Below, piece by piece: positions 18,842-23,160 of a stretch of DNA of 44,312 bases. The stretch covers positions 1-44,312 of the forward strand of contig JAMBLJ010000208.1 in the NCBI GenBank assembly GCA_023336815.1. The letters are read 5' to 3'. This DNA comes from Actinomycetes bacterium (GTDB lineage: Bacteria; Actinomycetota; Acidimicrobiia; Spongiisociales; UBA5794). The translations under genes were made by a program, and so were the position numbers. The notes below the pieces were generated by a model. The model was not told the DNA's origin, searched no databases, and saw only the letters and a list, made by a program, of their open reading frames with translations. The stretch's first letter is position 1, and every line of letters starts with the position of its first letter.

Positions 18842-18886
18842 TTGGCAATGCGTTCCACCCATCCTATGATTCGAACATATGTTCGT
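18842..18886 (+). promoter_or_regulatory. ruvC promoter with overlapping LexA/SOS box
   Basis: TTGGCA (18842-18847) - 17 bp - TATGAT (18865-18870); perfect palindrome CGAACATATGTTCG (18872-18885) covering the predicted +1 and the ATG at 18879. Confidence 0.8.
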
Positions 18887-19373
18887 TCTTGGAATTGACC
18901 CTGGTTTGACGCGTACGGGCTACGGGATCGTGGATTCGTCACGTGGAGTTATCACAGCCGTGACTGCCGGCGTGATCAGAACCGATCCGGTAGCCACCGT
19001 TGCGGAGCGCCTTGTTGAGCTCCAGCAGGACATGATCGGAGTGCTCGATGACCACCCCATCGACATGGCCGCTATCGAGCAGGTATTCGTGAACCGCAAT
19101 CGAGGAACTGCAATGGCTGTTGCACGTGCATCCGGCGTCATCATGGCCACGATCGCCACACGAGGGATCGCTGTTGCCGAATACTCACCATCGCAAGTGA
19201 AACTCGCAGTAACCGGCGCGGGAGATGCCGACAAACAGCAAATCGCCGCGGTCGTAGCGATGCGCTTGGGGCTCGCCAAGGTGGACGGACCGGCGGACGT
19301 CGCCGATGCACTTGGCATTGCCATGTGCCACGTTCAACATGCAGGAGCCGCCTCGATGGGTTCAGTCCGATGA
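18879..19373 (+). CDS. ruvC: Crossover junction endodeoxyribonuclease RuvC
   Basis: MFVLGIDPGLTRTGYGIVD, AIEQVFVNRN, DVADALGIAMCH. Confidence 0.97.
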   Translation: MFVLGIDPGLTRTGYGIVDSSRGVITAVTAGVIRTDPVATVAERLVELQQDMIGVLDDHPIDMAAIEQVFVNRNRGTAMAVARASGVIMATIATRGIAVAEYSPSQVKLAVTGAGDADKQQIAAVVAMRLGLAKVDGPADVADALGIAMCHVQHAGAASMGSVR

Positions 19374-19942
19374 TCGGCCGGCTCCGGGGTGTTCTTTCCC
19401 AACGTACGGACGAGCGTGTCGTGCTTGATGTCGGAGGAGTGGGTTATCTCGTAGCCGTGACGCCGCGGACCCTTGCTGATCTCCCTGGGATCGGCGAAGA
19501 GGTCGTTCTCCACACACATCTTCACGTACGCGAGGATCAGCTTGCGCTATTCGGATTCGAAACGTCAGAGGACAAGGAACTGTTCGGATTGTTGCTCGGC
19601 GTGTCAGGCGTTGGTCCAAAGGTCGCTCTGGCGATCCTCGCTACCATGACACCCGAACAGCTTCGTGTCGCAGTTGTGTCTGACGACACTGCTGCACTCA
19701 CCTCCGTCCCTGGCATCGGCAAACGATCTGCAGAGAAACTGATGGTTGAACTACGCCCAAAGATGGACGTCATATCAGAACGATCCTCTTCGTCGGGTCC
19801 GATAGCGGAGGTGCGAGAGGCTCTCGTTGGTCTCGGATATGCACCCGATGAGATACGGGGTACGCTCGCTTCCATGCCACACGACCTTTCTGTTGAGGAG
19901 TTGTTGAAGCGCTCGCTTCAGGAACTCGGGAGAGCACAATGA
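19370..19942 (+). CDS. ruvA: Holliday junction branch migration protein RuvA
   Basis: MIGRLRGVL, GVSGVGPKVALAIL, VPGIGKRSAEKLMVEL; ATGA overlap with ruvC. Confidence 0.96.
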   Translation: MIGRLRGVLSQRTDERVVLDVGGVGYLVAVTPRTLADLPGIGEEVVLHTHLHVREDQLALFGFETSEDKELFGLLLGVSGVGPKVALAILATMTPEQLRVAVVSDDTAALTSVPGIGKRSAEKLMVELRPKMDVISERSSSSGPIAEVREALVGLGYAPDEIRGTLASMPHDLSVEELLKRSLQELGRAQ

Positions 19943-19975
19943 CGTCTAGACCATCTAGTTCATTAGCCGGTGCTC

Positions 19976-21007
19976 ATGCGTGAAGAAGGGCTCCTGTCGG
20001 CAGCTCAGGCCACGGACGAACTCGATGTCGAGATCGAAGTTGGACTCAGGCCGCGCAAGTTGGACGAATTCGTCGGCCAGGAAGCACTCAAGGAACGCCT
20101 GTCGATTCTGATCGAGGCAGCGTCAGTACGCAATGAATCGGTCGATCACATCCTCTTCTCCGGGCCACCAGGCCTCGGAAAGACAAGCCTTGCCGCAATC
20201 GTCGCGGCCGAAATGGGTGCCGCGTTCCGATCGACATCCGGCCCGGCTCTCGATCGACCTGGAGATCTCGCCGCCGTGATCACCAACCTCGAGCCGGGCG
20301 ACGTGTTGTTCATCGACGAGATCCACAGGCTTCCCCGCCAGGTGGAAGAGGTGATGTACCCAGCAATGGAGGACGGCCAACTCGACATCGTCGTAGGAAA
20401 AGGTCCTGCCGCTCGATCGATCAAGATCGATCTGCCGAGGTTCACCCTCGTCGGCGCCACAACGCGGGTCGGGCGGGTTGCGCCACCACTCAGGGACCGA
20501 TTCGGATACGTGGCACGTCTGGACTACTACGGCCCTGATGATCTGACGACGATCGTGAAGCGGTCGGCATCGTTGCTTGAAACTACTGTGACAACCGATG
20601 GCTGCCAGGCGATCGCTCGCAGATCGCGTGGGACCCCGAGGATCGCCAACCGGCTGCTTCGCAGAGTGCGGGATTATGCCGCAGTAAGGGCTGACGGAAC
20701 GGTCGATGGCGCAACCGCAGACGTAGCGCTCGAGGTGTTCGAGGTCGACGAGGCCGGTCTCGACAAGGTAGATCGTTCGATTCTCGGTTCCATGATCTCG
20801 AAGTTCGGAGGAGGACCCGTTGGACTCTCAACTCTGGCGATCGCTGTCGGGGAGGACCCCGAGACGGTGGAGGACGCCTACGAACCGTTCCTTATTCTCG
20901 AGGGGTACCTCCAACGGACCCCAAGGGGCCGAATCGCTACGGAACGTGCATACCGACACCTTGGTCTTGATATGCCGATCGAACGTGACCAGGGCACATT
21001 GCTCTAG
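19976..21007 (+). CDS. ruvB: Holliday junction branch migration helicase RuvB
   Basis: [59 protein letters not shown] 19970 is an alternative start. Confidence 0.97.
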
Positions 21008-21028: not shown

Positions 21029-22048
21029 ATGGACATCCAGACATCCGATTTCGACTACACCTTGCCCGATATGGCGATCGCCCAGGAGGCGATCGAGCCG
21101 CGGGATGCGGCGCGGCTTCTCCTGGTTGACGGACTCGAGGACCGCCACTTTGCGGAACTGCCTTCGATCCTTTCGAGCGGAGACCTTCTTGTTGTGAACG
21201 AGACGAAGGTCCGTTCGGCACGTCTCATGGGAACCCGAAGACCCGGCGGGGGCCGGACAGAGGTTCTTCTCACCCAACGAGTCGATCCGGAAAGGTGGCG
21301 GGCCCTGGTGCGGCCAGCGAACAAACTGGGTGCGGGTTCGATCGTGGATTGTGGAGCCATTGAGATACGCCTTCTCACCGAACCTGAGAACGGTGTCGTG
21401 ACGGTGTGCGTTGAGGCTGCGGGTGACGTTGAGACCGCGATCGAGGAATCGGGGACGCTCCCGCTGCCGCCGTACTTTCATGGCGATCTCGCCGATTCGT
21501 CTCGTTACCAAACGATGTTCGCCACGAACCTCGGCTCATCAGCGGCACCAACGGCGGCACTGCACTTCACACCAGCACTCATCACACGTCTCCGCTCGCG
21601 TGACATCACGGTCGTTGCTGTGAACCTCGAAGTGGGGATCGATACATTCCGCCCGATGAGCGATGGATACGTGATGGATCACGTGATCCATACCGAACGG
21701 ATAGACGTCAGCGAACGGGCCGTTGAGGCCGTTGCACAGGCGCGGGATCGAGGTGGGAAGGTTGTTGCAGTTGGAACCACAGTCGTGCGGGCTCTCGAGT
21801 CGACATCCCGAACCGATGGCACGATATCCGCCTACAACGGACCCACGGATCTCTTCATAGCCCCCGGTTATCAACCTGGTGTGGTCGACGCCATGATCAC
21901 CAACTTTCACGCCCCGAGGACAACCCTCCTCGTGATGCTCGCAGCTTTCATGGGCGAACGGTGGAGGGAAGCGTATACCCATGCTCTCGATCGGGGCTAT
22001 CGCTTCCTATCGTTCGGTGATGCGATGTATCTCGAGATCGACCGATGA
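21029..22048 (+). CDS. queA: S-adenosylmethionine:tRNA ribosyltransferase-isomerase QueA, with a non-textbook motif
   Basis: LPDMAIAQEAIEPRDAARLL, LPLPPYFHGDLADSSRYQTMFA, AAPTAALHFT, VDAMITNFHAPRTTLLVMLAAFMG, YRFLSFGDAMYL. Confidence 0.93.
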   Translation: MDIQTSDFDYTLPDMAIAQEAIEPRDAARLLLVDGLEDRHFAELPSILSSGDLLVVNETKVRSARLMGTRRPGGGRTEVLLTQRVDPERWRALVRPANKLGAGSIVDCGAIEIRLLTEPENGVVTVCVEAAGDVETAIEESGTLPLPPYFHGDLADSSRYQTMFATNLGSSAAPTAALHFTPALITRLRSRDITVVAVNLEVGIDTFRPMSDGYVMDHVIHTERIDVSERAVEAVAQARDRGGKVVAVGTTVVRALESTSRTDGTISAYNGPTDLFIAPGYQPGVVDAMITNFHAPRTTLLVMLAAFMGERWREAYTHALDRGYRFLSFGDAMYLEIDR

Positions 22049-23160
22049 GTGAGCCTGTCACTTTCAGAACCGCCACGACCGACGGGGATGCCAGGACCGG
22101 GATCCTCACGACACCTCATGGTGATGTGCAAACGCCCAACTTCATGGCGGTAGGTACCAGAGCGTCCGTGAAAACGATCGACACCGAAGACCTCGAGAGG
22201 CTCGACGCACAGATCGTTCTCGCGAACACGTACCACCTCATGCTGCGTCCAGGGGAGACCATCGTCGAGGGACAGGGAGGCCTCCATGGGTTCATGGCGT
22301 GGAACGGTCCGATCCTGACCGACTCCGGTGGCTATCAGGTGTTATCTCTCAAACCTCAGATCACCGAAGAGAACCTCGTTTTCGCGTCCACTTACGATGG
22401 ATCGCGTGTCACCCTCAGCCCTGAGCGATCAGTCCGCGTACAGGAGGCGCTCGGCGCCGATATCGCGATGGTCCTCGATGTACCCGTCAATCTTCCGGCA
22501 TCCTACGAAGATGCAAATAGTGCAATGCGTCAAACGTTGCGGTGGGCTGAGCGATCCAAGAACGCCAAGACAAGATCTGATCGGGCTCTTTTCGGGATCG
22601 TCCAGGGTGGAGCCGATGCCGAACTTCGCCGTATCTCTGCGCGTGAAACCGCGAACATCGGGTTCCCGGGTTACGGCATCGGAGGACTCGCTGTCGGTGA
22701 GAGCCCGCATGAGCGTGTCACAGCTATCGAAGCGACGATTCCCGAGCTCCCCGACACCGCTGCACGTTATGTCATGGGCCTCGGGGACACGGAGGGTTTG
22801 CTCGACGCTGTTGCACATGGTGTCGATCTGTTCGATTGTGTACTTCCCACGAGACTGGCCCGCCACGGCAAGGCACTCACCAGGACAGGGGACATCTCTA
22901 TCAAGCGACTCGAGTTCGCGCATGACTCTCAACCGATCGAGGATGGCTGCTCATGTGTAGCTTGTCGTCGGTACTCGAGGGCGTATATACGACACCTTCA
23001 CCGAACACACGAAGCAACAGCTGATCGATTACTCACTCTGCACAATCTGTCGTACACGTACCGATTGATGGCAGATATCCGAACATCGATCGAGACAGGC
23101 TCCTTTGCAAGCTTCCGCGGTGAGGTCATCGGGCGTCGGTCCCAGAGCGGTAGCGGCTAG
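22045..23160 (+). CDS. tgt: tRNA-guanine(34) transglycosylase, with a non-textbook substrate-pocket motif
   Basis: TDSGGYQVLSL, FGIVQGG, GIGGLAVGE, DLFDCVLPTRLARHGKALT, zinc motif CSCVAC-x25-H; ATGA overlap with queA. Confidence 0.95.
   Translation: MSEPVTFRTATTDGDARTGILTTPHGDVQTPNFMAVGTRASVKTIDTEDLERLDAQIVLANTYHLMLRPGETIVEGQGGLHGFMAWNGPILTDSGGYQVLSLKPQITEENLVFASTYDGSRVTLSPERSVRVQEALGADIAMVLDVPVNLPASYEDANSAMRQTLRWAERSKNAKTRSDRALFGIVQGGADAELRRISARETANIGFPGYGIGGLAVGESPHERVTAIEATIPELPDTAARYVMGLGDTEGLLDAVAHGVDLFDCVLPTRLARHGKALTRTGDISIKRLEFAHDSQPIEDGCSCVACRRYSRAYIRHLHRTHEATADRLLTLHNLSYTYRLMADIRTSIETGSFASFRGEVIGRRSQSGSG

Follow-up and report, generated by a model that had tools for sequence, protein, structure and literature searches.

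The window, that is, the whole 44,312-nt stretch of DNA that was analysed, belongs to a 94%-complete draft genome of about 3.0 Mb in 299 contigs and carries a ruvCAB cluster on its forward strand. The Holliday-junction resolvase gene ruvC (18879..19373, + strand) encodes 164 amino acids and is predicted to be leaderless; its product scores over the cut-off of TIGR00228 (107.5 bits) and also matches NF000711. The ruvA gene (19370..19942, + strand; TIGR00084, 194.7 bits) overlaps the ruvC stop codon through an ATGA, and the Holliday-junction helicase gene ruvB (19970..21007, + strand; TIGR00635, 453.8 bits) follows after a gap of 27 nt, an order that a sequence-only reading of the window had given and that the NCBIfam models uphold. 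A queA-like ORF (21029..22048, + strand) begins 21 nt past ruvB and its stop is overlapped by a tgt-like ORF (22045..23160, + strand), both being named from their sequence. The 21-nt gap, and a scan of the window that found no terminator-like site on the + strand between ruvC and the queA-like ORF, are consistent with a possible read-through of the ruvCAB transcript into queA-tgt. On the other side, yebC ends 106 nt upstream of ruvC on the same strand, and the same scan found no + strand terminator-like site from 18700 to ruvC.

Direct reading of positions 18842-18886 gives a -35-like hexamer TTGGCA (18842..18847, + strand), a 17-nt spacer, a -10 hexamer TATGAT of the TANNNT class (18865..18870, + strand), a single T, and then CGAACATATGTTCG (18872..18885, no strand assigned), a perfect 14-bp palindrome and predicted LexA operator (SOS box) that would lie over both the predicted +1 and the start codon. 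The ruvC ATG (18879..18881, + strand) is located inside this palindrome, 8 nt past the end of the -10 hexamer and 14 nt after its first base, and no Shine-Dalgarno sequence is visible before it. The sequence-only reading had described this arrangement, and its coordinates were confirmed. Operator bases are also the second codon of ruvC (TTC) and the first base of the third (G); since one strand serves as operator and as coding start, codon 2 is fixed as TTC (Phe) and codon 3 must begin with G.

The SOS motif set of the source genome

A search of the window for CGAACN4GTTCG gives a single site, where shuffled sequences lead one to expect 0.14, and the ruvC palindrome matches the SOS consensus at 10 of 10 positions. 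Genome-wide there are 20 such sites, against 3 for a reversed control pattern. An alternating purine/pyrimidine (RYRY) core is found in 9 of the 20, namely at lexA (two sites, besides which the gene has a third, imperfect box), recA, imuA’-imuB, dnaE2, a DEDD-exonuclease/UvrC-like gene, a UvrD-like gene, an HNH-type gene and ruvC, while the remaining sites, with a non-RYRY core, lie mostly within coding sequences. By its core the ruvC site is thus an ordinary member of the SOS motif set of this genome, and the matching palindromes before lexA, recA, imuA’-imuB and dnaE2 argue that it is a LexA operator. Profile searches identify one LexA in the genome (PF01726, 92.7 bits; TIGR00498, 238 bits), with full-length matches to solved LexA structures and with the A-G cleavage motif, the Ser and the Lys recognizable by inspection. 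The sequence-only reading had named the box as a CGAAC-N4-GTTCG element, had proposed a scan of the genome for it upstream of lexA, recA and dnaE2, and had made its claim depend on a LexA homologue of matching specificity; the scan found the box before all three genes, and the identification is borne out by the LexA gene and by the same boxes at lexA, recA, imuA’-imuB and dnaE2.

Other sites in the set are also worth recording. The imuA’-imuB (G000:C155:948) and dnaE2 (C155:29266; L017, L018) genes each have a CGAACGTATGTTCG box, and together they make up a mutasome cassette that is predicted to be SOS-controlled. At G000:C111:37347 (L011), an SOS-type box lies closely 5’ of a gene whose product, with its HNH-like C-terminus (a weak match to IscB), we take to resemble the 13E12/DUF222 proteins; these are LexA targets in mycobacteria. 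A UvrD/PcrA-like paralog (G000:C85:17486-17499; L008, L396) has a -10-like TTAGTCT followed by CGAACACATGTTCG, with an in-frame ATG in the box, and such an in-box start is also present in one of its three nearest relatives. The layout of promoter, box and start was not seen at the main PcrA copies, and an in-box start codon was not found at lexA, recA, dnaE2 or imuA’.

Regulation of ruv genes by LexA has been described in other members of the phylum. In Streptomyces venezuelae, which has a single lexA, LexA controls ruvC-ruvA and has the motif tCGAAC-N4-GNNCGa, and Streptomyces LexA binds CGAAC-N4-GTTCG-type sites including a CGTAC variant; there, unlike at the locus studied here, the SOS box begins upstream at -23, matches the consensus poorly and does not contain the start codon (PMC9380542). 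The ruvC of Mycobacterium tuberculosis (Rv2594c) is likewise an actinobacterial ruvC with an SOS box, and passages of PMC8151990 report, from proteomics, that mitomycin C induces RuvA, RuvB and RuvC, which are not present in a recA mutant, whereas an earlier report cited there (Dawson 2010) has ruvC induction as RecA-independent even though the SOS box is well placed. A leaderless SOS transcript is also established in the phylum, since translation of M. tuberculosis lexA starts at its mapped transcription start (PMC2897130, in part); this is a different gene, and the passages concerned describe no operator on its start codon.

Conservation of the box on the ruvC start codon

Acidimicrobiia is a class of soil and marine bacteria. 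RuvC proteins were drawn from 247 genomes of this class and ruvC start regions were read in 155 genomes besides the source genome, a box being called at 9 or more matches out of 10. The box lies over the ruvC start codon in a single register (-7 to +7) and in frame in 138 of the 156 genomes, window included, and in 45 of 50 families, the in-box start codon being ATG or GTG across the class. An earlier set of relatives (80 named loci) was excluded as evidence and the unbiased class draw was used instead, because MFVLGIDP had been among the search peptides of that set and biased it; the unbiased draw shows the same pattern. The non-coding left arm was assessed by a threshold-free test, in which CGAAC at -7 is matched at 4 or more of 5 bases in 89 of 104 genes with a short N-terminus, against 1.75% at other upstream offsets; roughly half of the genomes have an imperfect version of this arm (CGTAC, AGAAC, CAAAC or GGAAC).

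The position of the -10 is conserved as well. In each of the 138 boxed rows of relatives (137 genomes, one of them sampled twice) a TANNNT has its first base 13-16 nt upstream of the in-box start codon, compared with 0-3 in background windows. According to passages of PMC3160421 and PMC3898074, roughly 20-25% of genes in Actinobacteria are leaderless, and such genes are recognizable by a TANNNT some 12 bp upstream of their start codon. In the window, where the motif starts 14 nt before the ATG, ruvC agrees with them in position and motif class; those passages treat leaderless genes in general and describe no superimposed operator that dictates codons. The near-consensus promoter that had been proposed from the letters alone stands in part: both hexamers are present (10 of 12 positions together) and TANNNT is kept in relatives, but a promoter consensus scan of the window gave 1 match against 1.5 expected, which is not significant, and the -35 is not class-wide, TTG at a spacer of 16-18 nt being found in only 22 of 138 rows. 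As the scan is non-significant alone, the evidence for a promoter comes from conservation. Among relatives, GGAG, GAGG or AGGA at -18 to -4 occurs in 30 of 138 rows, partly derived from TAGGAT -10 hexamers. Additionally, in a -10-aligned class sample, 41 of 138 ruvC promoters have TCC[AG]C at exactly -26 relative to the first T of TANNNT, a position that no standard -35 would occupy, and GTCC stands at -27 in 29 of 138.

Exceptions to the pattern relate only partially to loss of LexA. Family f42 (two genomes, G181 and G242; L170, L328) fits a joint loss, having no LexA by PF01726 or TIGR00498 and no ruvC box, although TANNNT is kept at -12. Genus g32, in contrast, has lost the ruvC box with TANNNT kept at -14, and three of its four genomes encode LexA and have good boxes, while G006, G051 and G186 (91-97% complete) have no detectable LexA and retain the ruvC box; perhaps their LexA falls in assembly gaps. 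In the roughly 1-Mb genomes of family f12, LexA is kept and no RuvC match was obtained.

In a sample of the phylum outside the class, a recognizable ruvC box mostly lies directly after the -10 with the start codon further downstream, and high-GC genomes of that sample (L220-L223) have a leader between the ruvC box and the start codon. In the simplest history, the promoter-operator pair would be the older element and the start codon would have moved into its right half in Acidimicrobiia, a half-site whose consensus, RTGTTCG, itself includes ATG or GTG.

The operator imprint on the RuvC N-terminus

RuvC has Phe as its second residue in 137 of 138 boxed genes and in none of 11 unboxed ones (Fisher p = 9e-16, uncorrected for shared ancestry). 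In 88 rows the protein starts with M/V-F-V-L-G or a close variant, and the other 50 have N-terminal extensions of 2 to 21 extra codons before the RuvC core, in 15 different lengths, all of them multiples of three. These extended proteins still have their start codon in the box; all 50 have TTC as codon 2 and some GNN (for D, A, V, G or E) as codon 3, whereas at the core position that corresponds to F2 they mostly have P, V or R, and F does not occur there. Since TTC and GNN are retained on extended proteins and F2 is absent where there is no box, Phe2 and the first base of codon 3 (G) reflect constraints at the DNA level, and translation most likely begins inside the operator.

Two groups use the in-box start in a different manner. 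In genus g27 of family f7 (L146, L149, L330, L331, L332 and L333), all 6 of 6 genomes have an ORF of 11-14 codons that starts at the in-box ATG, begins MF, ends in C-S or C-L before its stop and overlaps the ruvC start out of frame, with lengths that differ in threes; it is possibly a leaderless leader peptide coupled to ruvC. In G157 (L185), the in-box start is a GTG; the ORF that it opens has 7 codons, its stop codon overlapping the ruvC ATG in a TGATG.

Interpretation and significance

Taken at the level of the class, these features very probably represent a LexA operator into which the transcription start and the start codon of a leaderless ruvC(AB) mRNA are merged. RNA polymerase would read the -10 and initiate some 7 nt further on, 0-2 nt upstream of the ATG, and a LexA dimer on the palindrome would cover the +1 and the first codons, sterically blocking initiation. 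Upon DNA damage, RecA-stimulated self-cleavage of LexA would free the operator, and the freed promoter would yield an mRNA whose 5’ end is the right half of the operator itself (AUGUUCG), on which ribosomes would start directly at the leading AUG. Such a layout could be glimpsed but not seen as class-wide from a single sequence, and the feature is now better supported than one sequence could show: the leaderless start that the sequence-only reading had proposed gains strong comparative support from the fixed -10 distance, the in-frame in-box start and the operator-dictated codons 2 and 3 in 138 of 156 genomes. Family f42 and the box directly after the -10 elsewhere in the phylum also speak for the model, whereas the frequent left-arm imperfections, the box kept in G006, G051 and G186, its loss in g32 and the RecA-independent induction reported for M. 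tuberculosis ruvC speak against it.

Different explanations of the same data have to be weighed against this one. The box could be a genuine LexA operator while the transcript begins at a promoter further upstream (read-through from yebC would be one case) and carries a 5’ leader, the overlap with the start codon being incidental and translation not leaderless. The leader seen between box and start codon outside the class, the 106-nt distance from yebC and the lack of a terminator-like site in between would accommodate such a transcript, which is nevertheless very unlikely given that TANNNT is fixed at 13-16 nt in every boxed row of relatives and that, with few exceptions, extensions share the reading frame of the in-box start (50 against 7). 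A longer transcript could also fold the AUG into a hairpin through the palindrome (-4.5 kcal/mol), but this hairpin is no stabler than those of shuffled sequences (z = 0.15) and is a weak argument against a leader. Control of damage induction of ruvCAB mainly by a LexA-independent activator of the PafBC type, with a box of little effect, is likewise very unlikely; it draws on the RecA-independent induction of M. tuberculosis ruvC cited in passages of PMC8151990 and on one class member (L153) with TGTCCGTG-N8-TANNNT, and it leaves the strong conservation of the box unexplained. The PafBC (RecA-NDp) promoter TGTCRGTG-N8-TANNNT itself was rejected for the ruvC of the window, where it has mismatches at 6 of 8 positions, and it occurs with at most 1 mismatch in only 1 of 138 relatives.

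That the palindrome reflects chance and protein constraint, RuvC requiring MFV and ATGTTCG then giving half of the palindrome for free, has a negligible probability. The right arm is indeed coding and the 80-locus set was biased by its search peptide, but the unbiased class sample gives the same result, the non-coding left arm is conserved, and the extended proteins, with M-F-(GNN) at their new ends and P, V or R at the core position, refute it.

The merged operator and start codon therefore stay the preferred reading, and a broader version of it can be put forward tentatively, as a proposal that is somewhat doubtful as a whole. Operator, transcription start and start codon may form one selected dual-coding unit across Acidimicrobiia that dictates the first three codons, and the extensions may have arisen as buffers, relieving the enzyme core of the Phe that the operator imposes; one genus would use its in-box start to open a short overlapping leader ORF coupled to ruvC, and a similar in-box start would serve the SOS-type UvrD-like gene of the source genome.

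Leaderless genes are known, as is the control of ruvCAB by LexA; what appears to be new is their fixed class-wide superposition together with its imprint on a protein. The merged layout, present in some 45 families, appears to be undescribed in the openly licensed literature that was searched, and no treatment of LexA or leaderless regulation in Acidimicrobiia was found among the titles and abstracts of that literature. On the practical side, the annotation of ruvC start codons can be fixed to the in-box ATG or GTG, extended proteins included. The model predicts a class-wide leaderless SOS transcript, and the class offers a natural test of the joint loss of operator and LexA. More generally, it provides a clear comparative case of a repressor operator that overwrites a protein sequence, with Phe imposed at position 2 of a core recombination enzyme, a constraint that vanishes where the box is lost or where an extension buffers the coding start.
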